Positions 25,028 through 64,000 of a DNA stretch of 64,000 nt are shown here, piece by piece. Made by a program: the position numbers and the translations under genes. Under the pieces are notes generated by a model that did no database searches, had not been told where the DNA came from, and was given only the letters and a program-made list of their open reading frames with translations. This stretch comes from Dactylosporangium siamense. Lineage in GTDB: Bacteria; Actinomycetota; Actinomycetes; Mycobacteriales; Micromonosporaceae. How positions within the stretch are numbered: the first letter of the stretch is position 1; each line of letters begins with the position of its first letter. The stretch lies in contig NZ_BONQ01000038.1 in the NCBI RefSeq assembly GCF_016862795.1, positions 25,792 to 89,791 on the forward strand, in the 5' to 3' direction.

Positions 25028-26701
25028 TTAGAACCGCGCCGGCTCGCGGTAGATGCCCCATTCGTCCTTCAACGCGCCGCAGATCTCGCCGAGGGTCGCC
25101 TCGGCGCGGCACGCGTCCAGCATCGCCGGGATCATGTTGCCGCCCGTGCGCGCGACCGCCACCATCTCGGCGATCCGCTGCTCCACCAGGGCCTTGTCGC
25201 GTCCGGCCCGGCGGGCGCCGAGCAGCTTGTTCTGCTCGATCTCGACCTCGTGCGAGACCCGCATGATGTCCAGCTCCCGGGTCAGCGAGCCGGTGTGCAC
25301 GTTGACGCCGACGACCCGCTTGTCGCCCTTCTCGACGGCCTGCTGGTAGACGAAGGCGCTGTCGGCGATCTCCGACATGAACCAGCCGTCCTCGATGCCG
25401 CGCAGGATGCCGGCGGTGATGGTGCCGTCGCCGCCCAGATCGCGGATCCGCTGGAAGATGGCCTCGGCCTCGGCCTCGATGCGGTCGGTGAGGTCCTCGA
25501 CATACCAGGAGCCACCGAGCGGATCGGCGACGTTGGTGATGCCCGTCTCCTCCATCAGCACCTGCTGGGTCCGCAGGGCGATCTCGGCGGCCTCGTCGGT
25601 GGGCAGCGCCAGGGTCTCGTCCAGGGCGTTGGTGTGCAGCGACTGGGTGCCGCCGAGGACCGCGCTGAGCGCCTCGACCGCGGTGCGGACCACGTTGTTG
25701 TAGGGCTGCTGCGCGGTGAGCGACACCCCGGCGGTCTGCGTGTGGAACTTGAGCCAGAGCGCCTTCTCGCTGGTGGCGCCGTACACGTCGCGCAGCCAGC
25801 GGGCCCAGATCCGGCGTGCGGCGCGGAACTTCGCGATCTCCTCGAAGAAGTCGATGTGCGCGTCGAAGAAGAAGCTGAGACCGGGCGCGAACGCGTTGAC
25901 GTCCAGGCCCCGCGACTGGCCGAGCTCCACGTAGCCGAAGCCGTCGGCGAGCGTGTACGCCAGCTCCTGCGCGGCGGTCGAGCCGGCCTCACGGATGTGG
26001 TAGCCGGAGACGGACAGCGGCTTGTAGCGCGGGATCTCCTTGCCGCAGAACTCCATCAGGTCGCCGATGAGGCGCAGGTGCGGCTCGGGCGGGAAGAGCC
26101 ACTCCTTCTGCGCGATGTACTCCTTGAAGATGTCCGTCTGCAGGGTGCCGTCCAGCACCCGCAGGTCGGCGCCCTGGCGCTCGGCCGCCACCAGATACAT
26201 GCAGAACACCGGGACGGCCGGCCCGGAGATGGTCATGCTGGTGGTGACGTCCGCGAGGGGGATGCCGTCGAACAGCACGTCCATGTCGGCGGCCGAGTCG
26301 ATGGCGACGCCGCAGTGGCCGACCTCGCCGAGCGACTGCGGCTCGTCGGAGTCGCGGCCCATCAGGGTCGGCATGTCGAAGGCGACGGACAGGCCGCCGC
26401 CGCCCGCGCCGAGCAGCATCTTGTAGCGGGCGTTGGTCTGCTGGGCGTTGCCGAAGCCGGAGAACTGCCGGATCGTCCAGGTGCGGCCGCGATACCCGGT
26501 CGGGTGCAGCCCCCGCGTGTAGGGGAACTCACCGGGCCAGCCGATGCGCTCGAAGCCCGGCACGTCGGCACCCTCGGGCGGGCCGTAGACCGGGTCGACC
26601 GGGGTCCCGGACAGGGTGGTGAAGTCGGCGTCGCGCTTGCGGGCGTCGTCGTAGCGACGCTGCCAGCGGGCGCGGCCATCGGCGATGTCGTGGGCGTCCA
26701 T
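25028..26701 (-). CDS. icmA: Isobutyryl-CoA mutase large subunit (acyl-CoA mutase family)
   Basis: A 557-residue methylmalonyl-CoA-mutase-type TIM barrel without a B12-binding domain, the size of IcmA (about 566) rather than MutB. The specificity residues match isobutyryl-CoA mutase: Phe80 (TIRQFSGFGN) and Gln198 (IFKEYIAQKE), where methylmalonyl-CoA mutase has Tyr and Arg. Other hallmarks: FDMPTLMGRDSD, GYHIREAG, FHTQTAGVSLTAQQPYNN, LHTNALDETLALP, and the C-terminal EWGIYREP. The enzyme interconverts butyryl-CoA and isobutyryl-CoA with adenosylcobalamin bound on a separate small subunit, IcmB, which is not in this window. ATG 26701 is the family-typical start. It is probably controlled by the operator at 26772-26789. 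Confidence 0.88.
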   Translation of the reverse strand: MDAHDIADGRARWQRRYDDARKRDADFTTLSGTPVDPVYGPPEGADVPGFERIGWPGEFPYTRGLHPTGYRGRTWTIRQFSGFGNAQQTNARYKMLLGAGGGGLSVAFDMPTLMGRDSDEPQSLGEVGHCGVAIDSAADMDVLFDGIPLADVTTSMTISGPAVPVFCMYLVAAERQGADLRVLDGTLQTDIFKEYIAQKEWLFPPEPHLRLIGDLMEFCGKEIPRYKPLSVSGYHIREAGSTAAQELAYTLADGFGYVELGQSRGLDVNAFAPGLSFFFDAHIDFFEEIAKFRAARRIWARWLRDVYGATSEKALWLKFHTQTAGVSLTAQQPYNNVVRTAVEALSAVLGGTQSLHTNALDETLALPTDEAAEIALRTQQVLMEETGITNVADPLGGSWYVEDLTDRIEAEAEAIFQRIRDLGGDGTITAGILRGIEDGWFMSEIADSAFVYQQAVEKGDKRVVGVNVHTGSLTRELDIMRVSHEVEIEQNKLLGARRAGRDKALVEQRIAEMVAVARTGGNMIPAMLDACRAEATLGEICGALKDEWGIYREPARF

Positions 26702-26771: not shown

Positions 26772-26789
26772 CCTGAACGATCGCTCAGG
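26772..26789. promoter_or_regulatory. Candidate TetR-type operator upstream of icmA
   Basis: CCTGAACGATCGCTCAGG is an almost perfect palindrome (CTGA-n-CGATCG-n-TCAG), 71 nt upstream of the mutase start. A TACCAT -10-like hexamer lies just downstream on the minus strand, so a bound repressor would overlap the promoter. Closely similar motifs lie upstream of the thiolase/epimerase, ccr and hydroxyacyl-CoA dehydrogenase genes. Confidence 0.62.
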
Positions 26790-26813
26790 AGGGTGGGTGA
26801 ACTCCCACCCTCC
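26788..26813 (-). terminator. Terminator hairpin after the Asp23/Gls24 gene
   Basis: GGAGGGTGGG at 26788-26797 is the perfect inverse of CCCACCCTCC at 26804-26813 with a 6-nt loop, 11 nt beyond the Asp23/Gls24 stop. It abuts the icmA operator and separates the two transcripts. Confidence 0.75.
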
Positions 26814-26823
26814 GTCCCATGAC

Positions 26824-27504
26824 TTATGCCGCCGACGCCTCGACGGACTCGGGCAGCTTGTCGCTGACGTGCACGTCGTCCACGACGATGTCCACCGAGG
26901 TGACCTCGAGGCCCAGCAGGTTCTCGACCGCGCCGATGACGTTGGCGCGGACCTTCTCGGCCACGGAGTACAGCACGAAGCCGTACTCGATCACGAGCGT
27001 GACCCGCACGGCGGCGGAGGTGCCCTCGAGCCGGACGCTCACGCCGCGGTTGCCCTGCTCGCGCTCGTCGTCGCCGAGGCCGATCCGGTCCCGGACGGAG
27101 GCGAAGACGCGGGCGACGTCGCCGCCCAGGTCGTAGACACCGGGCACCTCGCGGGCGGCGATGCCGGCGATCTTCTCGACCACCTCGTCGGCGATGGTGG
27201 TGGTGCCCCGCTCGGCGGCGAGCTCGGCGTTGTTGCGCAGCCGGTCGACGACCTGCGAGGCGATCCGCCCGGACGCGGCGGCGGTCGTCGAGGCGAACTC
27301 CCCGACCCGGTCGGCCGTGGTCGAGGCGAACTCGCCGACCCGCTCGGCGGTGTCGGAGGCGAACGCGCTGACCCGCTCGCCGGTGGTGGCGGTGCCCGCC
27401 ACGGAGCCCGGGGCGGCCGGCTCGATCGAGAGTGCGTCGCCGGTCATGTCCGGGTCGTCCACGTCGGTGCGCTGCGCGGGGAGGCCCGCGGTCACGTCGG
27501 TCAT
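26824..27504 (-). CDS. Asp23/Gls24 family envelope stress response protein
   Basis: A 226-residue protein whose C-terminal 130 residues match the Asp23/Gls24 domain (VEKIAGIAAREVPGVYDLGG ... GVSVRLEGTSAAVRVTLVIEYGFVLYSVAEKVRANVIGAVENLLGLEVTSVDIVVDDVHV). The N-terminal part has short repeats of the type RVGEFASTTAD (about residues 45-80) and is probably flexible or helical. Members sit at the cell membrane and respond to envelope or alkaline stress; the molecular role is unclear. ATG 27504 has TAGGGGAG upstream. It is flanked by hairpins on both sides, so it is probably a single-gene transcript although surrounded by same-strand genes. Confidence 0.9.
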   Translation of the reverse strand: MTDVTAGLPAQRTDVDDPDMTGDALSIEPAAPGSVAGTATTGERVSAFASDTAERVGEFASTTADRVGEFASTTAAASGRIASQVVDRLRNNAELAAERGTTTIADEVVEKIAGIAAREVPGVYDLGGDVARVFASVRDRIGLGDDEREQGNRGVSVRLEGTSAAVRVTLVIEYGFVLYSVAEKVRANVIGAVENLLGLEVTSVDIVVDDVHVSDKLPESVEASAA

Positions 27505-27526
27505 CTCTGTACTCCCCTAGGTCGGT

Positions 27527-27556
27527 GGCCGAGCGCGAGCGTACTCGCGCCCGGCC
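27527..27556 (-). terminator. Hairpin terminator after the ABC operon
   Basis: GGCCGAGCGCGA at 27527-27538 pairs with TCGCGCCCGGCC at 27545-27556 (one mismatch, 6-nt loop). It lies 14 nt beyond the stop of the ATPase gene at 27571 and upstream of the Asp23/Gls24 ribosome site. Confidence 0.7.
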
Positions 27557-27570
27557 AACGCTGGGAGAAC

Positions 27571-28221
27571 CTAACGGACCAGTTGGGCGATCCCGTCGGA
27601 GAGGTGCAGCTCGCGGTCGCAGGCGGCGGCCGCCTCCGGGTCGTGGGTGGCGAAGACGACCGCCGCGCCGCGGCGGGCCTCCTCCTGCAGGAGCTCCATG
27701 ACCTTCTGCCGGTTGGTGGAGTCCAGCTCGCTGGTCACCTCGTCGGCGAGCACCACGGCGCCGTGCAGGGCCAGCCCGCGGGCGATCGCGGTGCGCTGCT
27801 GCTGACCGCCGGAGAGCTCCTCGACCAGCTGGTCGGCCTGGCCGGCGAGGCCGAGCCGCTCCAGCGACGACACGGTCGCCCGGCGGGCGTCGGCCGGGGC
27901 CGACCCGCCGGCGATCATCGCCACCTGGATGTTCTCCTGCGCGGTGAGGATCGCGGCGAGCCCGTTGTCCTGCGGGATCAGCACGACCTTCTCGGCCACC
28001 GCGTGGTCGCGGTCGCGCAGCGGCGTGCTGTCCACGGCCACGGTCCCGGCCGCCGGCTTCAGCAGCCCCGCCATCGCCCACAGCAGCGTCGTCTTGCCGG
28101 CCCCGGACGGGCCGGTGACGGCGAGGATCTGCCCTGGGGAGACGATCACGGACACGTCGCGCAGCACCGGATGGTCCCGCTCGTACGCCACCGTGACGCT
28201 GTCGACCGTCAACGTCTTCAC
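27571..28221 (-). CDS. ABC transporter ATP-binding protein (short, MacB/LolD type)
   Basis: A 216-residue ATPase with Walker A GPSGAGKTTLLWAM, signature LSGGQQQRTAIARGLAL, Walker B VVLADEVTSELDSTN (a Val in place of the usual Pro of DEPTS), and switch His FATHDPEAAAACD. It lacks the AbrB-like tail of the other two ATPases of this region. GTG start at 28221 overlaps the stop of the preceding ATPase gene (GTGA), so it is translationally coupled. It may pair with the permease at 29084 or energise another system. The Pro-to-Val change after the catalytic Glu does not remove a catalytic residue. Confidence 0.88.
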   Translation of the reverse strand: MKTLTVDSVTVAYERDHPVLRDVSVIVSPGQILAVTGPSGAGKTTLLWAMAGLLKPAAGTVAVDSTPLRDRDHAVAEKVVLIPQDNGLAAILTAQENIQVAMIAGGSAPADARRATVSSLERLGLAGQADQLVEELSGGQQQRTAIARGLALHGAVVLADEVTSELDSTNRQKVMELLQEEARRGAAVVFATHDPEAAAACDRELHLSDGIAQLVR

Positions 28222-29087
28222 TGCATGTCCTCCAACATCTGTGACGACAACCCGGACCCGGCCGGCACCAGCAGCACCGTGCCGTCGGGCTGCGGCTCGA
28301 CCCCGACCAGCGAACCGGGCGGCAGCAGGCGCAGCGCCTCCTGCGGCAGGTGCACCGTACCGTCGCGACCGACCACCGCGTAGTCCTCTCCGCGGCGGCC
28401 TTCGGCGCCGACCCGGCCGTCCCGGATGGTGACGGTGCGACCCATCCGGTGGCCGACGTCCGGGTCGTGCGTCACGACGACCACCGTCGTGCCGGCCCGG
28501 CGGACCGCGTCCAGGGCGTGGAGCACCTCGTCGCGGGCGTGCGTGTCGAGCTGGCTGGTCGGCTCGTCGGCGAGCAGCAGTCCCGGCCGGGCGGCCAGCC
28601 CGACGGCGAGCGCCAACCGTTGACGCTCACCAGGAGAGAGTCGCTGCGGCCGCTGCCGGTTGCGTCCCCGTCCGTTCAGACCGACGGTGGCCAGCACCTC
28701 ACGTGGGTCCGGCAGCTGCCGGCGCCGCCCGCCGGGGATGCCGCGCTGGGCGAAGCGCACGTTCTGCTCCGCGGTCAGGTAGGGCAGCAGGTTGCGCGAG
28801 GCACCCTGCAGCACCACCCCGACGTCGGTGGCGCGCAGCTGCTGCAGCTCGGCCGCGGTGGCCCGGGCCAGGTCATGCGTGCCCACGCTGACCCGGCCCG
28901 CCGACGGCGGCAGGAGGCCGGCGAGCAGCGACAGCAGCGTCGACTTGCCCGACCCGGACGGGCCGAGCAGGGCGACCGACTCGCCCGGGGAGATGTCGAG
29001 GTCGACCCCCGACAGGGCCACGACGTCGTAGCCCTCCAGGCGGTAGATGTACACCAGCCCCCGGCACGTCACCGCAAGCCCGCTCAC
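28218..29087 (-). CDS. ABC transporter ATP-binding protein with AbrB-like C-terminal domain
   Basis: A 289-residue paralogue of the ATPase at 18080. Seen: Walker A GPSGSGKSTLLSLL, signature LSPGERQRLALAVGLA, Walker B LLLADEPTSQLDTHA, switch His VVTHDPDVGHRMG. The C-terminal extension from about residue 230 (GRDGTVHLPQEALRLLPPGS, then VGVEP and DGTVLLVP) repeats the AbrB-like pattern seen in the other ATPase. GTG 29087 overlaps the stop of the permease gene (GTGA). Longer in-frame sequence upstream runs antisense-like inside the permease gene and is rejected. Likely motor for the permease at 29084. Confidence 0.87.
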   Translation of the reverse strand: MSGLAVTCRGLVYIYRLEGYDVVALSGVDLDISPGESVALLGPSGSGKSTLLSLLAGLLPPSAGRVSVGTHDLARATAAELQQLRATDVGVVLQGASRNLLPYLTAEQNVRFAQRGIPGGRRRQLPDPREVLATVGLNGRGRNRQRPQRLSPGERQRLALAVGLAARPGLLLADEPTSQLDTHARDEVLHALDAVRRAGTTVVVVTHDPDVGHRMGRTVTIRDGRVGAEGRRGEDYAVVGRDGTVHLPQEALRLLPPGSLVGVEPQPDGTVLLVPAGSGLSSQMLEDMQ

Positions 29088-32000
29088 TGTGCACCGTCCC
29101 GCAGTCGTTCCGGCGTGGCGCGGCCCATCAGGCGGAGCACCATCAGCACCACCGCCAGAAGACCGCCCACGATGACGGCGACCGCCACGGGCAACGCGCC
29201 CATGCCGAGCCGCAGGGTGAAGGGCTCGGCGACCCCGACCGTGACGAGCGGGATGCCGGGCAGCATCACCATCGCGCCCACCAGCCCGGCGGCGAGACCG
29301 ACGACGAGCGGCAGGCCGAGCAGCGCCCGGTACTCCCGGAACACCGCCCGGCGCAGCTGCCCGGCGCGCACCCCGGCCACCCGCAGCGCGGCGAGCTCGT
29401 AGAGGCGGGCCCGGACCCCGACGTACGCGGTGAGCAGCACCACGCCGATCGCGAGGAGGATCGCCGCGCCACCGGCGAGCAGGTAGAGCCACAGCCCGAG
29501 GGCCGGTGCGCGGCGGGCCAGCTGCGCGAGCTGCCCGTCGATGGTCTCGGTGCGCAGCACCTGCACCCCGGCCGCGGCGAGCCGCCGGTCGAGGTCCGCG
29601 GGTGCGGCGGAGGAGGCCCACACCTCGTAGCGCAGGGTGGCGTTGTCGGCGAGGCTGGCGCCGCGCTCGGCCATCCGGGTGGCGTAGTCGAGGTCGAAGA
29701 GCACCCCGCGACGGCCGGCCCGGGGCAGCTCCGTGGCGTGCGCCGCGACCGTGAACGGCTGCGGCTGGTCGGAGAACCCGGGCAGTTTGAACGTCGCCGC
29801 GGCCGCGTCGTCGGTGGGCGCGCCACCGGCGAGGACCGCGGGCAGCGCCTCGGGCGTGTCGACGTGCTCCACGACGGCGTCGGCGGGGTCGCTGCCGGCG
29901 ACGTCGACGCCGAGCGCCGCGCCGGACCGGACGGTGACCTGCGCGCCGCCGGTGGACAGGCGCGGCCGCCAGCGGCCGGCGAGGTCGAAGCCCGCCGTGA
30001 GGGGCGCGCCGTCGGTGCTCAGGCCGCGGACGGCGACGCTGACCGCGAAGGGTTCGCTGCCGCCGGCGGCCCGCCCGATGGCCAGGCCGACGAGCCGGCA
30101 GCCGGTCGCGCAGCCGGTGAGGGCCGCGTGGTAGGACTTCGTGCCCTTCCCCAGGCCGCCGAGCGGCACCGTGCGGGGCGGCTGCCCGGGCGCGGCGACG
30201 ATCGCGGCGACCCGCAGCGCCGGTTTGGCCGGCAGCGCGTCGACGGAGATCTCGGCGGCGAGGTCCTTGCCCACCCGCAGCGGCGCGGCGACGTTCGGGT
30301 GCAGCCGCGCGGCCAGGTCGCCGACCTCGGCCCGGGAGTGCCCGCGCCAGACGGCGACGTCCGCGAACCGGCCGGACTGCACCCCGATCAGCTCGACCGG
30401 GACGTTGTCGAAGCGCTGGCTGGCCCGCACGACGGCCATGGCGTGACCGCCGGGGTCGGCCTTGTCGACCGCGGCCTCCAGCGCGGCGGGGTGGTCGGCG
30501 GCGACGGTGAGGACCCGCTGCGCGCCGACGGTGTCGTCGGCGGCGTCGCGGCGGGCCTGCGCGGCGGCGTCCCACGCGGTCGCGGCGAACGTCAGCAGCG
30601 CCACCGCGACCGTGACCACGACGACCAGCCGCTGACCGCCGGGACGGCGGGACAGCTGCGCGGCGGACAGCAGCGGCACGATCCGGCCGCGGCGGCGGGC
30701 GATCCGCAGCCGGGCCTGCGACCACAGGCCGAGCAGCCGGGCCGCGGCGATGCCGAGGACGACGGCGAGCAGCGGCGGCGCCAGCAGTGCCAGGGGTGAG
30801 CCGCGGTCGTTCACGGCGGCGGCGAGGCTGGCCGCGGCGAGCGCCACGACGACGCCGTCCGCGACGCCGGCCCGCCAGCCACCCCGCTCGGGGACGCGCC
30901 GCAACAGACCCAGGACCGGCCGGGCCAGGGTCTGCCGGCCGGCCAGGAGGGCGGCGGCCAGGCCCGCGACCAGGGCCAGGCCCGCGGCGGCGAACACCGG
31001 CCAGCGCACCTCGACCCGGACGCCGTCGGCGAGCAGCGCCCCGGCGGCGGCCTGCACGAGCAGCAGGCCGGCGGCGATCCCGACGGGCACCGCGGCGGCG
31101 GTCAGCAGCAGCACCTCACCCAGGCCGAACCTGGCGGCCCGCCCGGCCGGATAGCCACGAAGCTTCGCCAGCGCGATTTCCGGCGCCCGTTCCTCGGTCA
31201 GCGACGCGACGAGCAAAAAGAGCACAAACCAACACAAAAGCAGCAATGGTACGGCGATGACCGGCGCTGTCCGTCCGATGCTGGACTGGTCGGTGTCGAT
31301 GTCGCGAAGGACCGCCGGGAGGGTGGTGGTCACCTCGAGCTCCTCGCCCCGCAGCCGGTCACCCAGGATCTGGATGCCGTCGCGGAGCCCGGCGACGTCG
31401 TCGAGCCTGATCCGGTCCGCCCGCAGCGGGTATTCCAGCCGGGTCGTCAGGGTCGCCGCGCGGTCCAGGCGCAGGTCGTCCTCGGTCATCGAGAACACGG
31501 CGTCGACCGTGGAATCGCTGGCGCTGAAGTAGGAGGTGCGGCCCCAGTACGCGGCGTCGCCGTCCTTCGGGGTGTAGACGCCCCGGATCGTGAAGGTCTT
31601 GTCATGCCCGCCGGTCGCCGGCCCCATGCGGACGGTGAGCCGGTCGCCGACCTTCAGGTTCTGGGCCGTGGCGGTGCGCCGGCTGACCGCGATCTCGCCC
31701 GGGTTGTCCGGGCAGTCGCCGTCGATCGTGAGGTGATAGCAGGCGTTGTCGCGGTACGCGAGCCGGCCGCTCACGTCACCCACCGCGATCTCGGTGTCGA
31801 TGGCCGCGACCGGCAGGTCGAGCCGGTCGGCGAGCAGCTGGTCCTTGGCGAGCGCGGTGTTCATGGCCAGCCGGATCTCGGCGAGGTCCTTGAACGCGGC
31901 GCTGTCTGCGGTGCCCTTTGCCCCGACGGTCAGCCCGGTCGCGTCGGTGGACGCGGCGGACAGGCCATCGGTGAGCACGGACTGCTGCGCGGCACGGCTG

Positions 32001-32113
32001 TACGCGGGTGCGAGCACGGCCGCCGTGGTCGCCGTCACGGCGAGGAGGAAGACCACGAACGACCGGCCGGCCCGGTATCTGATGCCACGCAGCATGACGG
32101 TCCAGGCCGTCAA
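29084..32113 (-). CDS. FtsX-like ABC transporter permease, paralogue B
   Basis: A 1009-residue permease, third paralogue of the A1/A2 family, with an N-terminal membrane segment (about 18-38), a central block (about 275-540, with VPLLLLCWFVLFLLVAS) and three C-terminal segments. Conserved cysteines: Cys125/Cys134 (RDNACYHLTIDGDCP) and CATGCRLVGLAI near 665. A TTG start at 32113 is preferred because AGGGGG lies 8 nt upstream; ATG at 32095 (MLRGIRYRAG) is possible and would still leave the first membrane segment. It is followed by two coupled ATPase genes. Cargo unknown; envelope lipid or peptide handling is the usual role of the family. Confidence 0.87.
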   Translation of the reverse strand: MTAWTVMLRGIRYRAGRSFVVFLLAVTATTAAVLAPAYSRAAQQSVLTDGLSAASTDATGLTVGAKGTADSAAFKDLAEIRLAMNTALAKDQLLADRLDLPVAAIDTEIAVGDVSGRLAYRDNACYHLTIDGDCPDNPGEIAVSRRTATAQNLKVGDRLTVRMGPATGGHDKTFTIRGVYTPKDGDAAYWGRTSYFSASDSTVDAVFSMTEDDLRLDRAATLTTRLEYPLRADRIRLDDVAGLRDGIQILGDRLRGEELEVTTTLPAVLRDIDTDQSSIGRTAPVIAVPLLLLCWFVLFLLVASLTEERAPEIALAKLRGYPAGRAARFGLGEVLLLTAAAVPVGIAAGLLLVQAAAGALLADGVRVEVRWPVFAAAGLALVAGLAAALLAGRQTLARPVLGLLRRVPERGGWRAGVADGVVVALAAASLAAAVNDRGSPLALLAPPLLAVVLGIAAARLLGLWSQARLRIARRRGRIVPLLSAAQLSRRPGGQRLVVVVTVAVALLTFAATAWDAAAQARRDAADDTVGAQRVLTVAADHPAALEAAVDKADPGGHAMAVVRASQRFDNVPVELIGVQSGRFADVAVWRGHSRAEVGDLAARLHPNVAAPLRVGKDLAAEISVDALPAKPALRVAAIVAAPGQPPRTVPLGGLGKGTKSYHAALTGCATGCRLVGLAIGRAAGGSEPFAVSVAVRGLSTDGAPLTAGFDLAGRWRPRLSTGGAQVTVRSGAALGVDVAGSDPADAVVEHVDTPEALPAVLAGGAPTDDAAAATFKLPGFSDQPQPFTVAAHATELPRAGRRGVLFDLDYATRMAERGASLADNATLRYEVWASSAAPADLDRRLAAAGVQVLRTETIDGQLAQLARRAPALGLWLYLLAGGAAILLAIGVVLLTAYVGVRARLYELAALRVAGVRAGQLRRAVFREYRALLGLPLVVGLAAGLVGAMVMLPGIPLVTVGVAEPFTLRLGMGALPVAVAVIVGGLLAVVLMVLRLMGRATPERLRDGAQ

Positions 32114-32158
32114 GATGTGCCCCCTGTGCTGGTCGAGCTGAAGGTTGACCCGCAGACC

Positions 32159-33139
32159 TTAGCGGCCGTTCGGCGCTTCGGTCATGGTCACCAGCTCTCC
32201 TGCCGCGGTGTGCGGATCCAGGTCACCGTCCGCGACCTGCCGCGCCAGGTCCGCCAGCACCGCACCGTCCCTGAGGGCTTCCATCCGGGCACGCAGCGTG
32301 CCCAGGGCGATCGCCTCGATCTCGGCGGCGGCCCGGCGCTCCCGCCGTTTCCGGAGCTCGCCGGTGTCCTGCAGGTGCTCCCGGTGCTCCGTGATCGCCG
32401 CCACGATCTCCTCGACGCCCTCGGCCCTGGCCGCGACGGCGCGCAGCACCTTGGGCCGCCACTGGCCGGGGGCCCGCTCGCCGAGGCCGATCATGCCCTG
32501 GATGTCGCGGTACGTGGCGTCGGCGCCGTCCCGGTCGGCCTTGTTGACCACGAAGATGTCGGCGATCTCCAGCACCCCGGCCTTGGCCGCCTGGATCGAG
32601 TCGCCCATGCCGGGGGCGAGCAGCACGAGGGTGGTGTCGGCGAGCCCGGCGATCTCGACCTCGGCTTGGCCGACGCCGACCGTCTCCACGACCACCGGGT
32701 CGCAGCCGGCGCCGTCGAGCACCCGCACCGCCTGCGGGGTCGCCGCCGACAGCCCGCCGAGGTGGCCCCGGCTGGACATCGAGCGGATGTAGACGCCGGG
32801 GTCGGTGGCGTGGTCCTGCATCCGGACCCGGTCGCCGAGGATCGCCCCGCCGGTGAACGGGCTGGACGGGTCGACGGCGAGCACACCGACCCGCTTCTGC
32901 TGCTTCCGGAAGATCCGGACCAGCTCGTTGGTGGTGGTCGACTTGCCCACGCCGGGCGAGCCGGTCAGCCCGATGACGTGGGCGTCGCCGGCGAACGGCG
33001 CGAGGGCCGCCGCGACCTGCGGCAGCACCTCGTCACCGTCCTCGACCAGCGACACCAGGCGCGCGACGGCGCGGGGGTCACCCTCCCGCGCCCTCGTGAC
33101 CAGCTCTGGAACGTCCCGCGATCGGCGGATACCTGTCAT
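32159..33139 (-). CDS. meaB: MeaB/ArgK-type GTPase, chaperone of B12-dependent acyl-CoA mutase
   Basis: A 326-residue G3E-family GTPase. Seen: P-loop GSPGVGKSTTTNEL, AVDPSSPFTGGAILGDRVRM, MSSRGHLGGLSAAT, VVVETVGVGQAEVEI and the guanine motif VVNKADRDGAD. These proteins gate adenosylcobalamin loading and protect methylmalonyl- or isobutyryl-CoA mutases from inactivation. ATG 33139 begins MTGIRRSRDVPELV, the family-typical N-terminus; an upstream ATG at 33226 would overlap the thiolase gene. It follows the thiolase gene by 19 nt, so the two are one transcript. In Streptomyces the same order thiolase-meaB beside mce is known (recalled). Confidence 0.93.
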   Translation of the reverse strand: MTGIRRSRDVPELVTRAREGDPRAVARLVSLVEDGDEVLPQVAAALAPFAGDAHVIGLTGSPGVGKSTTTNELVRIFRKQQKRVGVLAVDPSSPFTGGAILGDRVRMQDHATDPGVYIRSMSSRGHLGGLSAATPQAVRVLDGAGCDPVVVETVGVGQAEVEIAGLADTTLVLLAPGMGDSIQAAKAGVLEIADIFVVNKADRDGADATYRDIQGMIGLGERAPGQWRPKVLRAVAARAEGVEEIVAAITEHREHLQDTGELRKRRERRAAAEIEAIALGTLRARMEALRDGAVLADLARQVADGDLDPHTAAGELVTMTEAPNGR

Positions 33140-33158
33140 GTGTTGAATGATCGCCGCT

Positions 33159-34346
33159 TCAGGACTTCGGCACCCGGAGCAGCAGCGCGTCACCCTGGCC
33201 GCCGCCGCCGCACAGCGCCGCGGCACCGAGGCCGCCGCCGCGGCGGCGCAGCTCCAGCGCGAGCGTCAGGGCCAGCCTGGCGCCGGACATGCCGATCGGG
33301 TGGCCGAGCGCGATGGCGCCGCCGTTGACGTTGACGATCGCGGGGTCGATGCCCAGGTCGGCGGTCGACTGCACGCCCACCGCGGCGAACGCCTCGTTGA
33401 TCTCCACGAGATCAAGGTCGGCGGTGGACAGGCCGGCCTTGCCCAGGGCGTGCTTGATCGCGCTGGACGGCTGGCTGGTCAGCGAGTTGTCGGGGCCGGC
33501 GACGTTGCCGTGCGCGCCGATCTCGGCCAGCCAGGTCAGCCCGAGCTCCTCCGCCTTGGCCCTGCTCATGACGACGACCGCGCAGGCCCCGTCGGAGATC
33601 GGCGAGGACGTCGCGGCGGTGATGGTGCCGTCCTTGCTGAACGCGGGCCGCAGCTTGGCCAGGGTCTCGACCGTGGTCTCCGGCCGGATCTGCTCGTCGT
33701 CGGTGACCAGCAGCGGGTCACCCTTGCGCTGCGGGATCTCCACCGCGACGATCTCCTCGGCGAAGCGCCCGTCCTTCTGCGCGGCGGCGGCCTTCTGGTG
33801 GCTGGCCGCGCCGAACGCGTCCTGCGCCTCGCGGGTGATCCCGAGCCGGGCGACGTGCCGCTCGGTCGACTCGCCCATCGACACCTGGTCGTAGGCGTCG
33901 GTCAGGCCGTCCAGGGCCATGTGGTCCCTGATGACGACGTCGCCGTACTTGTAGCCCTGCCGCTGCCCGACCAGCAGGTGCGGGGCGTTGGTCATCGACT
34001 CCATGCCGCCGGCGACCACGATGTCGAACTCGCCGGCCCGGATGAGCTGGTCGGCCAGGGCGATCGCGTCGAGGCCGGAGAGGCAGACCTTGTTGACGGT
34101 CAGCGCCGGCACCGACATCGGGATGCCGGCGTCGATGGCGGCCTGGCGGGCGGGGATCTGGCCGGCGCCGGCGGTCAGCACCTGACCCATGATCACGTAC
34201 TGCACCTGCTCGGGCGCGACGCCCGAGCGCTCGAGCGCCGCCTTGATGGCGACACCGCCGAGCTTGGTGGCGGGAAAGTCCTTGAGCGCACCGAGCAGTC
34301 GCCCCATCGGCGTGCGGGCGCCGTTGACGATCACCGATTGAGTCAT
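33159..34346 (-). CDS. Acetyl-CoA C-acetyltransferase (thiolase)
   Basis: A 395-residue thiolase that condenses two acetyl-CoA to acetoacetyl-CoA or runs in reverse. Catalytic residues are visible: nucleophile Cys88 ([10 protein letters not shown]), His349 ([12 protein letters not shown]) and Cys379 (LCGGGGQG). The [13 protein letters not shown] loop is typical of the biosynthetic/acetoacetyl type. ATG 34346 is chosen because GGAAGG lies 8 nt upstream and [13 protein letters not shown] is the family start. It is the first gene of a thiolase-meaB unit and divergent from the epimerase gene; the candidate operator at 34389-34404 lies between them. Confidence 0.94.
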
Positions 34347-34388
34347 CGGGAGGCCTTCCGAGAGATGGTTCACATCGCACCGTCGCGA

Positions 34389-34404
34389 CTGAACGATTAC
34401 TAGG
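34389..34404. promoter_or_regulatory. Candidate acyl-CoA-gene operator between thiolase and epimerase genes
   Basis: CTGAACGATTACTAGG matches the icmA-side site (CTGAACGATCGCTCAG) at 12 of 16 positions, with the left half identical. It sits centrally in the 73-nt divergent promoter region and could control both directions. Confidence 0.5.
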
Positions 34405-34419
34405 GTTCAGACTATCGCC

Positions 34420-34896
34420 ATGACCTCCTCCGACCCGCAGTTGGATATCTCACCCGTCGGCATCCTGCGCATCGACCACGTCGGTATCGCGGTCGCGGAT
34501 CTCGACGTGGCGATCGAGTTCTATGCCCGCGTCTTCGGCATGCGCGTCGTGCATGAGGAGACGAATGAGGAGCAGGGTGTGCGCGAGGCGATGCTGTCGG
34601 TCGGGCCGGCCGACGACGGCGGTCGCCTGCAGCTGCTCGCCCCACTGAGCCCGGCCTCGACCATCGCGAAGTTCCTGGACCGCAGCGGTCCGGGCCTCCA
34701 GCAGCTCGCGTACACGGTGACCGACATCGATGCCACGAGCGCCGAGCTGCGCTCCCGCGGCGTGCGGCTGCTCTACGACGAACCGCGCCGCGGCACGTCG
34801 GATTCGCGCATCAATTTCGTGCACCCGAAAGACGCCGGAGGCGTACTCGTGGAGCTGGTGGAGCCGTCCCGAGCAGCTTCGAGCAACCACTCCTGA
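34420..34896 (+). CDS. Methylmalonyl-CoA epimerase-like VOC protein
   Basis: A 158-residue vicinal-oxygen-chelate protein in the place where Streptomyces has methylmalonyl-CoA epimerase. Seen: RIDHVGIAVADLDVAIEFY, NEEQGVREAMLSVG, LQLLAPL, DEPRRGTSDSRINFVHPKD and GVLVELVEP. The metal ligands His20, Gln71 and Glu145 align with those of the epimerase (His12, Gln65, Glu141 in the propionibacterial enzyme). The fourth ligand, normally in GLHHIA, is missing: the sequence reads GLQQLAY at 92-98. It may be a Gln-liganded subgroup, or act on ethylmalonyl-/methylmalonyl-CoA differently. ATG 34420 lacks a clear ribosome site. It precedes ccr in the same direction. Confidence 0.82.
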   Translation: MTSSDPQLDISPVGILRIDHVGIAVADLDVAIEFYARVFGMRVVHEETNEEQGVREAMLSVGPADDGGRLQLLAPLSPASTIAKFLDRSGPGLQQLAYTVTDIDATSAELRSRGVRLLYDEPRRGTSDSRINFVHPKDAGGVLVELVEPSRAASSNHS

Positions 34897-34932
34897 ACCG
34901 CCCAGTGGACTTCTTCACAGGCCGGTTCCTGA

Positions 34933-34948
34933 TTTAGCTACCGTTCAG
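34933..34948. promoter_or_regulatory. Candidate acyl-CoA-gene operator upstream of ccr (inverted orientation)
   Basis: The minus strand reads CTGAACGGTAGCTAAA, matching the icmA-side motif CTGAACGATCGCTCA at 12 of the first 15 positions. It lies about 106 nt upstream of the ccr start and just ahead of the structured leader. Confidence 0.48.
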
Positions 34949-34961
34949 TAACGTCCGGGTC

Positions 34962-35053: not shown

Positions 35054-36403
35054 GTGCAGCAGATCCTCGACGCGATCATGCAGGCGGAAGGTGCCGCGGA
35101 CCCGGCGGCCGAGCTGCGCGCCGTGGCCGGCCTGCCGGTGCCCTCGTCGTATCGCGGCGTGGTCGTGCGCGCCGACGAGACCGACATGTTCGACGGCCTC
35201 GCCACCCGCGACAAGGACCCCCGCAAGTCCCTGCACGTGCAGGAGGTCCCCACCCCCGAGGTCGGCCCCGGCGAGGCGCTGATCGCGGTCATGGGCAGCG
35301 CGGTCAACTACAACACCGTCTGGACCTCGATCTTCGAGCCGGTCTCGACGTTCGGCTTCCTGCAGCGGTACGGCCGGCTCAACGACCTGTCGAAGCGCCA
35401 CGACCTGCCCTATCACGTGGTCGGCTCGGACGCCGCCGGCGTGGTGCTCAAGGTCGGCCCGGGCGTGAGCAAGTGGAAGCCGGGCGACGAGGTGGTCGCG
35501 CACTGCCTGAGCGTCGAGCTCGAGGACGCCACCGGCCACGACGACACGATGCTCGACCCGCAGCAGCGGATCTGGGGCTTCGAGACCAACTTCGGCGGCC
35601 TCGCCGAGCTGGCCCTGGTCAAGGCCAACCAGCTCATGCCGAAGCCCACCCACCTGTCCTGGGAGGAGGCGGCCTGCCCCGGGCTGGTCAACTCCACCGC
35701 CTACCGGCAGCTGGTCTCCCACCACGGCGCGCAGATGAAGCAGGGTGACACCGTCCTCATCTGGGGCGCGTCCGGCGGCCTCGGCTCCTACGCCACGCAG
35801 TTCGCCCTCAATGGCGGCGCGACCCCGATCTGCGTGGTGTCCAGCCCGCAGAAGGCCGACCTGTGCCGGGCCATGGGCGCCGAACTGGTGATCGACCGCT
35901 CGTCGTACACCTTCTGGAAGGACGAGCACACCCAGGACACCGCGGAGTGGCGCCGGTTCGGCGCCGAGATCCGCGCCCTGACCGGCGGCGACGACCCGGA
36001 CATCGTGTTCGAGCACCCCGGCCGCGAGACCTTCGGCGTGAGCGTCTACGTCGCCAAGCGCGGCGGCACGATCGTCACCTGCGCCTCGACCTCAGGGTTC
36101 ATGCACCAGTACGACAACCGGTACCTCTGGATGAACCTCAAGCGCATCGTCGGCAGCCACTTCGCCAACTACCGCGAGGCATGGGAGGCGAACCGGCTCA
36201 TCGCGCTCGGGCGGATCCATCCGACGCTGTCGCGCGCGTATCCACTGGACCAGACCGGCCAGGCCGCGCACGACGTGCACCGCAACGCGCACCAGGGCAA
36301 GGTCGGCGTGCTCTGCCTGGCACCCACCGAGGGCCTCGGCGTCCGCGACCCCGAGCTGCGCGCCCGGCACGAGCCGGCGATCAACCGCTTCCGGAACCAG
36401 TAA
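35054..36403 (+). CDS. ccr: Crotonyl-CoA carboxylase/reductase
   Basis: A 449-residue medium-chain reductase that carboxylates crotonyl-CoA reductively to ethylmalonyl-CoA (or reduces it to butyryl-CoA) with NADPH. The CO2-pocket residues of carboxylating members are present: Asn85 (GSAVNYNTVW), Phe176-Glu177 (IWGFETNFGG) and His369 (VGSHFANYREAWEANRL). The Rossmann motif is IWGASGGLGSYATQFAL. This supports a real Ccr rather than a plain quinone reductase. GTG start 35054 with TTAGGAG 6 nt upstream. It lies beside epimerase, thiolase and MeaB, consistent with ethylmalonyl-CoA/butyryl-CoA metabolism and supply of polyketide extender units. Regulation may involve the upstream operator and leader. 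Confidence 0.95.
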   Translation: MQQILDAIMQAEGAADPAAELRAVAGLPVPSSYRGVVVRADETDMFDGLATRDKDPRKSLHVQEVPTPEVGPGEALIAVMGSAVNYNTVWTSIFEPVSTFGFLQRYGRLNDLSKRHDLPYHVVGSDAAGVVLKVGPGVSKWKPGDEVVAHCLSVELEDATGHDDTMLDPQQRIWGFETNFGGLAELALVKANQLMPKPTHLSWEEAACPGLVNSTAYRQLVSHHGAQMKQGDTVLIWGASGGLGSYATQFALNGGATPICVVSSPQKADLCRAMGAELVIDRSSYTFWKDEHTQDTAEWRRFGAEIRALTGGDDPDIVFEHPGRETFGVSVYVAKRGGTIVTCASTSGFMHQYDNRYLWMNLKRIVGSHFANYREAWEANRLIALGRIHPTLSRAYPLDQTGQAAHDVHRNAHQGKVGVLCLAPTEGLGVRDPELRARHEPAINRFRNQ

Positions 36404-61507: not shown

Positions 61508-63292
61508 TCACCGCTTGGAGTAGTCGCGGAACCCGCGGCCCACTTTCCGGCCCAGGTAGCCGGCGGTCACCAGGTGCTCCAACAGCGGCGCGGGGGCGAA
61601 GCCGGGCTCGCGCAGCTCCAGGTACAACTCCCGCTGGATGGCGAGCGAGACGTCCAAGCCGACCACGTCGAGCAGCTCGAACGGCCCCATCGGGTAGCCA
61701 CAGCCGAGCTTCATCGCGTAGTCGATGTCGTCCGCGGTCGAGTACGACGCCTCGACCATCTTCACCGCGTCGTTGAGATACGGGAACAGCAGCGCGTTGA
61801 CCACGAACCCGGACCGGTCGGCGCACACCACCGCGTGCTTGGCGAGGGCCCGGCACACCTCGGTCGCGGTGTTCACGGTCGCGTCCGACGTCCGGATCGT
61901 GCGGACCACCTCGACCAGCCCCATCACCGGCGCCGGGTTGAAGAAGTGCAGCCCGATCACGTCCGCGGGGCGCTCGGTCGCGACCGCGCACTCGATCACC
62001 GGCAGGCTCGACGTCGTCGTGGCGAGCACGACCCCCGGCTTGCAGATCTCGTCGAGCGAGGCGAACAGCGCCTTCTTCACCGACAGCTCCTCGACCACCG
62101 CCTCGACCACCAGGTCGACGTCATTCAGGTGGTCGATCGTCGCGGACCACGTGACCCGCCCGATCGCGGCGTCCCGGTCCCGCTCGGTGAGCTTGCCCCG
62201 CACCACGCCCTTGTTGAGGCTGGTCTTGAGCCGCTCGCACACCTGCGCGGACTTCTCCGCGCCCCGGGTCACGGACACGACCTCGAACCCGGCCTTCGCG
62301 AACACCTCGATGATGCCCGTCGCCATCGTGCCGGAGCCGACCACGCCCACCTTCGCGATGTGCGTCGGCCTGCCGCTGTCGTTGCTGGTCGCCGGCGTGA
62401 GCTCGTCGGCCACGACGACCGGCGACCCCGGCTTCTCGTACGTGTAGAACCCCCGCCCCGACTTCCGCCCGAGCAGCCCGGCCGTCACCATCTGCTTGAT
62501 CAGCGGCACCGGCGCGTGCCTGCGGTCCCGGCCGCCGCGCCGGTACATGGTGTCGAGGATCTCGTACGCCGTGTCGAGCCCGATCAGATCCATCAGCGCG
62601 AGCGGCCCCATCGGCAGCCCGCACCCGAGCTTCATGGCCGCGTCGATGTCCTCGCGGGTCGCGTAGCGCGCCTCGACCATGGAGACGGCCTGGTTGAGAT
62701 ACCCGAACAGCAGCGCGTTGGCGATGAACCCGGCCCGGTCCGTGATCGTCACGTCCACCTTGCCGAGCCGCTCGCACAGCGCCTCGATGTCGGTGACCAC
62801 GTCCTGCGACGTCACCACCGTGCGCACCACCTCGACCAGCTTCATGATCGGCGCCGGGTTGAAGAAGTGCATGCCGATGACCTGGTTCGGCCTGGTCGTG
62901 GCCACCGAGATCTCCGTGACCGACAGGCTGGAGGTGTTGGTCGCGAGAATCGCCTCGGGCTTGCAGACCCGATCCAGCTCGGCGAAGATCCGCTGCTTGA
63001 GGTCCAGGTGCTCGGGCACCGCCTCGATCACCAGGTCCACCTCGTGCAACGCGTCCAACCCCACCGCGAACGTGACCCGCCCGAGCAGCGCGTCCCGGTC
63101 GCCGGCGGACAGCTTGCCCTTGGCGACGGCCCGGTCGAGCGACCCGCGCATCGTCACCTCACCCCGGTGCAGCGCCACATCACTGATCTCGACCGCGGTG
63201 ACGGCCACCCCGCTGCGGGCGAAGACCTCGACGATGCCGGCGCCCATGGTGCCCAGCCCGACCACACCCACGGAACCAAACTCGCGCCCCAT
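61508..63292 (-). CDS. 3-hydroxyacyl-CoA dehydrogenase, tandem duplicated (two full domains)
   Basis: A 594-residue protein made of two complete 3-hydroxybutyryl-CoA dehydrogenase units. Unit 1 (about 5-290): VGVVGLGTMGAGIVEVF, NTSSLSVTEI, VIGMHFFNPAP with the catalytic His, and C-terminal LMDLIGLDTAYEIL. Unit 2 (about 313-594): VGVVGSGTMATGIIEVF, TTTSSLPVIE, VIGLHFFNPAP and LLDVVGLDVSLAIQ. They oxidise 3-hydroxyacyl-CoA (or reduce acetoacetyl-CoA) with NAD(P). Such double proteins are known in actinobacteria. ATG 63292 with GGGAGG 7 nt upstream. The motif at 63303-63320 lies just upstream and ties it to the acyl-CoA genes at 25-36 kb. Confidence 0.94.
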   Translation of the reverse strand: MGREFGSVGVVGLGTMGAGIVEVFARSGVAVTAVEISDVALHRGEVTMRGSLDRAVAKGKLSAGDRDALLGRVTFAVGLDALHEVDLVIEAVPEHLDLKQRIFAELDRVCKPEAILATNTSSLSVTEISVATTRPNQVIGMHFFNPAPIMKLVEVVRTVVTSQDVVTDIEALCERLGKVDVTITDRAGFIANALLFGYLNQAVSMVEARYATREDIDAAMKLGCGLPMGPLALMDLIGLDTAYEILDTMYRRGGRDRRHAPVPLIKQMVTAGLLGRKSGRGFYTYEKPGSPVVVADELTPATSNDSGRPTHIAKVGVVGSGTMATGIIEVFAKAGFEVVSVTRGAEKSAQVCERLKTSLNKGVVRGKLTERDRDAAIGRVTWSATIDHLNDVDLVVEAVVEELSVKKALFASLDEICKPGVVLATTTSSLPVIECAVATERPADVIGLHFFNPAPVMGLVEVVRTIRTSDATVNTATEVCRALAKHAVVCADRSGFVVNALLFPYLNDAVKMVEASYSTADDIDYAMKLGCGYPMGPFELLDVVGLDVSLAIQRELYLELREPGFAPAPLLEHLVTAGYLGRKVGRGFRDYSKR

Positions 63293-63302
63293 CGCACGAC
63301 CT

Positions 63303-63320
63303 CCCTAACGACCGCTCAGG
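63303..63320. promoter_or_regulatory. Candidate acyl-CoA-gene operator upstream of the hydroxyacyl-CoA dehydrogenase
   Basis: CCCTAACGACCGCTCAGG matches the icmA-side site CCTGAACGATCGCTCAGG at 15 of 18 positions. It begins 11 nt upstream of the start codon and overlaps the ribosome site region, so binding could block transcript elongation or initiation. Confidence 0.55.
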
Positions 63321-64000
63321 TTACTGGCGAGTCTCCCATGCCACCCCCACCCAGCGCCCTGTGGGATTTCTGGCTGTGCTGGCCGGGGGCTGCGCCACCC
63401 CGCAGCCCCTCATGCTCGCTGCGCTCACACAGCCGCGCGTTCCGCGTTGGCTGGGATCGCGTATACGCGCCCATCCCGTGGCCGGCCGCCCGCGGTCCAC
63501 CTGCCACCACATCCGCCCCACGATCCGTGCCCGTTTGCAGGGCTCCCCGACGGGCGGGCCACCATGATCGAAGGTGCGCACCGGTCGCCCCGATGACCAC
63601 GGAGCGCCTTCGATCATCGCTCCATGATCGAAGGCGCGGGTCGGGACGGAAGGGCGGAGCGGGCGAACGAAGATCGCCGCCCGAACCGCGCGAAGCGATG
63701 GCAACAGCGACCGGGCCACAGCGATCGGTAGCAGCGACCGAGCAGTGCGTCATGTTCGGGGTGCGGGGCCGAGTCGAACACCGTCCGGTGCGGGACCGTT
63801 GTCGTGATCACGGGCATTTCGATGGCACCTGGGCCTGGCGAAGTTCCAGCGTGAGCGCAGCGATGAACCATGAACGAACCTCGACCGAAGCTGGACGGAT
63901 CGGGCTGTCGCTGCCCGCTGACCGGCGAGGGCGGCAATCGGCAGTGGCCGGCACCCGGCAACCCGGCGAGCTGCCACGAGCCGACGCCTCCGGCGGCAGA
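63321..64000. other. 680-nt region without a convincing gene
   Basis: Open frames here are short, rich in Arg/Pro/Ser, and lack ribosome sites and family motifs. Three copies of CATGATCGAAGGYGC-type sequence (63563, 63604 inverted, 63623) are present. The right-hand part, 63700-64000, shows nothing recognisable; a gene may begin beyond the window. Confidence 0.55.
63604..63637. repeat. Palindromic stem-loop, with a third copy nearby
   Basis: GCGCCTTCGATCAT (63604-63617) and ATGATCGAAGGCGC (63624-63637) form a perfect 14-bp stem with a CGCTCC loop. A further direct copy, CATGATCGAAGGTGCGC, lies at 63563-63579. It may be a dispersed repeat or a terminator of a gene outside the window. Confidence 0.65.

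Follow-up and report, generated by a model that had tools for sequence, protein, structure and literature searches.

A predicted TetR-family acyl-CoA regulon and a probable nested operator at ccr in Dactylosporangium siamense

Introduction

The TetR-family proteins BkaR (PMC3920632), AccR (PMC10933834) and PccD (PMC11596240) control branched-chain and short-chain acyl-coenzyme A (acyl-CoA) genes. BkaR of mycobacteria (Rv2506 / MSMEG_4718) binds a palindrome of 16 base pairs (bp), regulates its own gene and controls the accD1 operon for branched-chain keto-acid metabolism (PMC3920632), and AccR of Streptomyces avermitilis represses accD1A1-hmgL-fadE4 and other short-chain acyl-CoA genes from a 16-nucleotide palindrome (PMC10933834). 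FasR of M. tuberculosis is a TetR protein that is released from DNA by long acyl-CoA (PMC7382501). Here we analyze a stretch of 64,000 nucleotides from Dactylosporangium siamense (NCBI RefSeq assembly GCF_016862795.1, contig NZ_BONQ01000038.1, positions 25,792 to 89,791), called the window throughout. A preliminary description of the window had noticed a shared palindrome upstream of icmA, of a divergent thiolase/epimerase gene pair and of ccr, and had proposed that one regulator, possibly a TetR protein encoded elsewhere, controls these genes. Comparison with other genomes indicates that this regulon is real and that its regulator has probably been found.

Ccr and methylmalonyl-CoA supply polyketide building blocks. 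In the alphaproteobacterium Methylobacterium extorquens, ccr is regulated by CcrR, a TetR-family activator. Among the publications listed by searches for crotonyl-CoA carboxylase or CcrR, none had a title on a ccr regulator in actinobacteria. A literature search on BkaR, LiuR and TetR regulators of leucine catabolism in Micromonospora and actinobacteria, which covered few subscription papers, likewise gave no title on such a regulon.

Results

The promoters of icmA, thiolase/epimerase, hbd (3-hydroxybutyryl-CoA dehydrogenase) and ccr were compared around 80 ccr loci. Loci are numbered with L and genomes with G, G000 being the D. siamense genome itself (12.7 Mb, 296 contigs). The best named relatives of its ccr come from a Dactylosporangium assembly, Planosporangium and Micromonospora, which places it among the Micromonosporaceae. 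The Micromonosporaceae set comprises 26 loci (L025-L049 and L073), and counts refer to the promoters readable there. The families of Planosporangium, Hamadaea, Catelliglobosispora, Catellatospora and Actinophytocola were checked, and other genera are assigned by their accepted placement. Genes in these loci were called by a simple script using GC by codon position, which gives approximate starts.

The shared palindrome, which we call motif A (CTKARCGNYCGTTMAG), was found with at most two mismatches at 19 of 19 icmA promoters, 22 of 24 thiolase/epimerase promoters and 14 of 16 hbd promoters of Micromonosporaceae, counts in which many Micromonospora rows are close kin and hence not independent. 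The misses are L025 and L026 at thiolase/epimerase and L026 and L047 at hbd. In Micromonospora the site mostly reads CTTAGCGATCGTTCAGG at icmA, CTTAACGATTGTTCGG in the thiolase-epimerase gap and CTTAGCGGCCGTTCA at hbd. The same pattern written backwards, used as a control, was absent from all three promoter groups, and first-order shuffles reached 0.2-0.5%. Of 162 other intergenic gaps, 7 contained motif A at this level; five of them are icmA promoters with a differing predicted start, and the remaining two both belong to L041, where they lie upstream of the ABC permease gene and of ccr, respectively. The loss of the sites upstream of orthologues, named in the preliminary description as the outcome that would speak against a regulon, is therefore not what is seen.

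Within the window, all three sequences singled out earlier are present at their places, and the first, CCTGAACGATCGCTCAGG (26772-26789), is indeed a near-perfect palindrome. Searched with up to three mismatches, it gives three matches against 0.12 expected, namely both strands of its own site and 63303-63320, a site that had also been named beforehand. The half-site CTGAACG alone (7 found, 8.0 expected) and the degenerate motif at up to three mismatches (14 found, 13.0 expected) are not enriched in the window, so that judged from the window alone the likeness of the second and third sites could be due to chance. Since such counts are insufficient beyond the first site, the question was settled with other genomes. 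A symmetric matrix for motif A drew on 19 sites from other genomes, leaving out ccr promoters and G000; these sites had been found via a consensus inspired by the window, and the orthologous promoters were picked by us.

This matrix places the three described sites and the one at 63304 among its top five positions of the window, and the sixth-best position scores only 7.3. The best (26.0) is the predicted operator of icmA at 26773..26788 on the minus strand, read CTGAGCGATCGTTCAG, 71 bp from the start of this gene for the large subunit of an acyl-CoA mutase (557 amino acids; 25028..26701, minus strand; NCBIfam TIGR00641, E 5e-196). The second (21.3), at 63304..63319 on the minus strand and read CTGAGCGGTCGTTAGG, is a predicted operator 11 bp from the start of hbd (61508..63292, minus strand). 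The third (18.6), at 32158, is an addition to the sites described before and is taken up below. The fourth (17.0), TTTAGCTACCGTTCAG at 34933..34948 on the plus strand, is predicted to serve ccr, the crotonyl-CoA carboxylase/reductase gene (35054..36403, plus strand; TIGR01751 over the cut-off). The fifth (13.8), a predicted operator at 34389..34404 on the minus strand, lies between the divergent genes of acetyl-CoA acetyltransferase, the thiolase (33159..34346, minus strand; TIGR01930 over the cut-off), and methylmalonyl-CoA epimerase (34420..34896, plus strand; TIGR03081 over the cut-off). Two points of the preliminary description need correction: one half of the 34389 site is degenerate, and the ccr site is simultaneously a second, different palindrome centered 4 bp away (34937-34952).

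The proposed regulon also withstood the genome scan suggested in the preliminary description. In four relatives, CTTARCGRYCGTTCAG with at most one mismatch occurs at 11 places, 10 of which lie before acyl-CoA genes: icmA (4), accD (4), hbd (1) and a 3-hydroxyacyl-CoA dehydrogenase gene (1), the eleventh being inside a coding frame. In the D. siamense genome, CTKARCGNYCGTTMAG at the same level occurs at 16 places, 8 of which are upstream of TetR, acyl-CoA or branched-chain amino acid genes, namely icmA, hbd, a TetR gene, accD (two tandem sites), ilvE and the genes of an acetoacetate-CoA ligase and an acyl-CoA dehydrogenase, which diverge from a TspO gene and a UDP-sugar dehydrogenase-type gene, respectively. 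Places with two mismatches in the relatives include ilvE (checked in two genomes), biotin carboxylase (two), acyl-CoA dehydrogenase (one), thiolase/epimerase and ccr. Total numbers of motif and control matches at that level were 19/12, 14/23, 21/15 and 15/6, so single matches there mean little. A first-pass pattern, TGAACGNNCGNTCA, was abandoned; it mixes several palindromes, and the scanned neighbors of its exact matches were unrelated genes apart from icmA.

As anticipated, a TetR gene preceded by motif A exists away from the window, on the separate contig C84 (G000:C84:36706-37329). Its product of 207 amino acids matches PF00440 (63.0 bits) and PF17932 (35.9 bits), and the motif A site CTTAACGACCGTTCAG sits 32 bp before the gene start. 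A biotin carboxylase gene lies behind the TetR gene, accD with its two tandem motif A sites follows about 6 kb further on, and the cluster also includes an acyl-CoA dehydrogenase gene. Corresponding clusters of family relatives contain 3-hydroxy-3-methylglutaryl-CoA lyase, which makes the C84 cluster look like one of the leucine-breakdown type. Taken together, the gene set preceded by motif A looks like branched-chain amino acid and short-chain acyl-CoA catabolism. The nearest NCBIfam family of the C84 protein is SACE_7040 (NF050111), below its curated cut-off (228.9 of 250 bits), and relatives at E 1e-20 are present in 45 of 61 genomes of the order.

Motif A accompanies this type of gene elsewhere too. 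The upstream site is TCTAACGATCGTTCAG in the Planosporangium orthologue, CTGAACGGCCGTTCAG in that of G058 (75% identity) and ATTAACGACCGTTCAC in that of G024 (74% identity), the latter two being from other families; one locus of this pair carries four motif A sites in 7.7 kb. Motif A is also found at accD of the C84-type cluster in L229, L230 and L231. Most orthologues of 43-55% identity are preceded by palindromes with a GTTA-type half instead, and in L200 and L201 the upstream DNA includes the 16-bp core that PMC3920632 gives for the bkaR site of M. tuberculosis.

A phylogenetic tree separates 34 orthologue rows, L199-L201 among them, from 2 paralogues with support 100/99. These orthologues form a branch of 14 that all have the recognition helix YHHF and a branch of 20 that all have YRHF (support 92/94 and 90/92). 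All four orthologues with motif A in front have the helix YHHFAGKE, and in three of these four, one or both half-sites start with C at the position occupied by G in the YRHF branch. Palindromes with a GTTA-type half precede 19 of the 20 YRHF orthologues, operator types having been assigned to the tree by eye. Upstream of the YHHF orthologues L180-L183 no motif A was found. The difference between YHHF and YRHF is in line with the changed outer base of the operator, and the replacement of arginine by histidine may be its cause.

Other TetR genes were noted as well. In one Micromonospora genome a second TetR gene lies beside the accD site; it was rejected as the regulator, a different protein being encoded at that position in L151, L229 and L231. 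Long frames of about 400-580 amino acids, such as G000:C110:53507-53998, hold TetR matches, several of these in pairs; they recall the double TetR repressor Mce3R (PDB match) and are related to the C84 family. In L173-L176 and L241 a palindrome resembling motif B, described next, lies 33-57 bp upstream of the C84-type TetR gene in place of motif A, as if two regulators were wired in series.

At ccr, motif A overlaps with another palindrome of 16 bp, GTTACYGNNCRGTAAC, which we call motif B and which is shifted by 4 bp. Motif B is the palindrome carried by ccr promoters outside Micromonosporaceae, and in the window its predicted register GCTACCGTTCAGTAAC (34937..34952, plus strand) is the best match to the B matrix (22.8). 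That matrix was made from 15 sites, one of which carries one wrong base (the first letter of the L081 site), and it took ccr sites from 7 of the 25 non-Streptomyces outgroup loci. Scanning up to 400 bp upstream of ccr, we found B at scores of at least 17.9 in 26 of 26 Micromonosporaceae, and at scores of at least 11.9 in 2 of 29 Streptomyces loci and in 23 of the remaining 25 loci, Frankia accounting for the two misses (16 of 18 without the seven matrix donors). Motif A scored at least 10.8 in 24 of 26 Micromonosporaceae, and at least 10 in one locus each of the 25 non-Streptomyces and the 29 Streptomyces outgroup loci. In Hamadaea and Catellatospora the ccr promoters carry A and B apart from each other. 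A motif A register of at least 17.0 arises over simulated B sites with random flanks at a frequency of 9e-5, and with uniform flanks at 2e-4.

The same nesting recurs at a second gene. In two Micromonospora genomes, CTAAGTTACCGTTCAGT precedes a mutase gene that lies 17-22 kb away from ccr. The encoded protein shares 69-71% identity with the mutase whose gene immediately follows ccr in three Streptomyces loci and is hence probably ethylmalonyl-CoA mutase. The promoter of this gene was then examined in seven more genomes. In D. siamense it reads GTAAATTACCGTTCAGTAAG (A 10.6, B 21.5) just before the ATG, with the 4-bp offset seen at ccr. This offset is also found in three Micromonospora (A 11.8, 11.8 and 8.3), Catellatospora (10.3) and Hamadaea (19.5). 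In Salinispora and Saccharothrix only B is present, and Planosporangium shows no clear site of either kind (B 10.0).

Genome-wide, B at up to one mismatch gave 10, 7, 10 and 3 palindromes in four genomes (control 0, 0, 1 and 1), a slightly looser pattern gave 11, 8, 8 and 12 (control 0, 1, 1 and 8), and in the D. siamense genome up to two mismatches gave 75 (control 40). Neighbors of B include acyl-CoA dehydrogenases, thiolases and an aldehyde dehydrogenase, plus many unrelated genes. Motif B palindromes also lie near DUF6230 genes in L105 (G000:C83:183477) and L210 (G002:C47:18136, Micromonospora), and in front of 4Fe-4S protein genes of two Micromonospora genomes (L206:1565-3016 and L223:1-1441).

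The most conspicuous TetR gene next to B sites is FasR-like and was seen in two Geodermatophilus genomes (NF053731, 244.7 bits, under the cut-off of 330); the fasR orthologue of D. siamense is at G000:C21:24536-25120. Of 14 FasR orthologues with at least 57% identity, 13 have upstream DNA, and B at a score of at least 12 precedes eight of these; fasR-type genes with B occur in Geodermatophilus, Pseudonocardia, Actinophytocola, Saccharothrix and three Streptomyces. At the same threshold B is missing from all three Micromonosporaceae promoters of fasR orthologues and from a Frankia copy, and 3 of 17 paralogues carry it. The three Streptomyces genomes with B at fasR have no B at ccr, and no close FasR orthologue was found in the Micromonospora genome G002, which has B sites. 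The DNA crystallized with M. tuberculosis FasR scores merely 2.3 with the B matrix. Given this mixed evidence, a FasR-type protein is the leading candidate for the reader of motif B, and a weakly supported one. In one Micromonospora genome, inspection by eye revealed no close pair of a TetR_N match and motif B (up to two mismatches) among the matches listed. TetR genes upstream of ccr were seen in loci outside the family, in Actinophytocola and others (L208 and relatives; L051:8808-9413, L063, L058, L104 and L083), and these are related to the C84 and FasR types over a short stretch only.

The distribution of the two motifs differs between families. Outside Micromonosporaceae, strong B sites (at least 12) in the loci fetched around ccr lie mostly before ccr, thiolase/epimerase, hbd or their divergent neighbors. 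Within the family, at up to two mismatches, B is found at 0 of 24 thiolase/epimerase and 0 of 16 hbd promoters, ccr has both motifs, and icmA has A plus B in 8 of 19. That other families have B instead of A at ccr and at several thiolase/epimerase and hbd loci suggests a hand-over from B to A in Micromonosporaceae. In the simplest reading A would have replaced B as the operator of this gene set, while ccr and the mutase gene keep both.

Two features of the window remain to be described. The site at 32158..32173 (plus strand) is motif A-like and overlaps the stop codon of meaB. It lies 44 bp (for a TTG start) or 62 bp before an open reading frame of ABC transporter permease type (29084..32113, minus strand), and an ABC transporter-type operon fronted by this site occupies 27571-32173, between meaB and icmA. 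Long permease matches of 44-59% identity occur in four other loci (L025, L041, L048 and L049), among which the Catellatospora locus L041 alone has a site in that position (L041:6850), and within the DNA examined no permease match was found in Micromonospora ccr loci. Membership of the permease gene in the regulon is uncertain. At hbd, a weak B-like palindrome (63320..63335, not assigned to a strand; rank 2 with the B matrix, 14.1) abuts the motif A site, and a B site with up to three mismatches is present at just 1 of 16 Micromonosporaceae hbd promoters. The hbd product of 594 amino acids is a double 3-hydroxybutyryl-CoA dehydrogenase (NF005875 and NF004474, two stretches each), a tandem fusion that is nearly full length in relatives too.

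Discussion

Matrix ranking, promoter conservation and the unlinked TetR gene together support the earlier idea of one regulator for an acyl-CoA regulon. We consider it likely, with a probability of roughly three in four, that motif A is the operator of a single TetR-family repressor encoded on C84 and related to AccR, BkaR and PccD. Such a repressor would occupy the icmA, thiolase/epimerase, hbd and ccr promoters as well as those of the leucine-breakdown-type cluster and would leave them once an acyl-CoA ligand accumulates, a scheme in which binding, repression and ligand are all inferred. At ccr, dimers on motifs A and B, displaced by 4 bp, may compete or stack. We propose that the nesting at ccr and at the mutase gene makes both genes answer to two acyl-CoA sensors, the second of them tentatively a FasR-type TetR protein.

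Several observations weigh against this interpretation. Published BkaR and AccR operators begin with GTTA rather than CTTA. The G024 site is mixed, with outer bases A and G, so helix and outer base are imperfectly matched, though further sites of the G024 locus begin with C. None of the seven Micromonospora-type orthologues of the C84 gene (two assigned to Micromonospora by name, five to one genus of the family) has motif A in the 300 bp upstream; autoregulation is thus not general, and five of the seven have a B-like site at two or three mismatches instead. The two loci nearest in ccr, L025 and L026, have no motif A at ccr. In G002 the control exceeds the motif at two mismatches (23 against 14), and in the D. 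siamense genome at up to two mismatches the motif occurs 139 times and the control 81 times. The other 8 of the 16 closest places in that genome are not at clear regulon genes. They comprise the 32158 site, three places inside predicted frames (one of which precedes a citrate synthase gene), single places upstream of a phospholipase A2 gene, of an amino acid permease gene and, at a distance of 141 bp, of an acetyltransferase gene, and a place without a nearby gene start. A scan for sigma-70-like promoters around thiolase/epimerase and ccr found none, leaving the geometry of repression without support from that scan; hexamers of the -35/-10 kind noticed by eye at ccr are not taken as a promoter.

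The absence of motif A from those seven Micromonospora-type promoters would also fit a regulon governed by a different TetR protein, of which the C84 gene is merely one target. Genomes of this kind offer many candidates (72 PF00440 matches in one 6.6-Mb Micromonospora genome), and in that genome another TetR gene adjoins the accD site. That neighbor is not conserved in kind, however, and in the C84 family tree the helix changes along with the operator type. Motif A moreover accompanies the C84-type gene in D. siamense, Planosporangium, G058 and G024, and accD in three further loci, and we regard a different regulator as quite unlikely. Even less can be said for a chance resemblance of promoter DNA with no common regulator. 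The lack of enrichment of CTGAACG and of the degenerate motif in the window would be expected under it, but the cross-genome matrix ranking and the conservation at orthologous promoters contradict it, making it hardly credible.

For the ccr site taken by itself, one may argue that it belongs to motif B only, as a FasR-type operator, and that its likeness to motif A is incidental. B is present in every Micromonosporaceae ccr promoter and in other families occurs almost without A; L025 and L026 lack A, and the A register of Salinispora reaches just 10.8. So good an A register over a B site would nevertheless rarely arise in simulated sequences, with either choice of flanks, the 4-bp nesting recurs at the mutase gene, and Hamadaea and Catellatospora have the two motifs at separate places of the ccr promoter. 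We therefore find an incidental likeness unlikely, and prefer to see in the ccr promoter an operator for both the C84 repressor and the reader of motif B. A broader model would be that the whole set passed from B (FasR-type) to A (AccR/BkaR-type, with a changed helix), and that the nested operators of ccr and the mutase gene are a live intermediate acting as a two-input gate with mutually exclusive sensors. This is possible, although we hold it with some doubt.

These predictions may be useful in two respects. They specify the regulator together with its sites and an overlapping second input, which makes the control of ccr directly testable with two proteins and few probes. And the joint change of helix and operator between branches, with the catabolic neighborhood kept, would be a compact case of evolving operator specificity.

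Compared with described systems, motif B may belong to a FasR-like one: it precedes 8 of 13 fasR orthologues with upstream DNA, though none of the 3 from Micromonosporaceae; the FasR crystal DNA has a low B score, and FasR activates fas-acpS. The site reported for PccD from Saccharopolyspora erythraea, T/ATGACGG/CTGT/CTGT/A (PMC10933834), is unlike motif A. BkaR is set apart by its published core GTTA(N)T(N4)A(N)TAAC (PMC3920632) and its YRHF helix, and the C84 protein is 43-44% identical to L199-L201, the orthologues with BkaR sites. The gene kinds around C84-type TetR genes are those of the AccR regulon, while the published AccR operator is GTTAA-N6-TTAAC (PMC10933834) where we find CTKARCG-N2-CGTTMAG, and the set predicted here adds icmA, thiolase/epimerase, hbd and ccr. 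The C84 protein shares with AccR, BkaR and PccD the TetR helix-turn-helix and a related C-terminal domain, a common tree and an acc/acyl-CoA dehydrogenase neighborhood, yet its own promoter carries CTTAACGACCGTTCAG and not the operator form GTTA-N8-TAAC. We accordingly describe it as an operator-shifted relative of these repressors rather than as an AccR or a BkaR.

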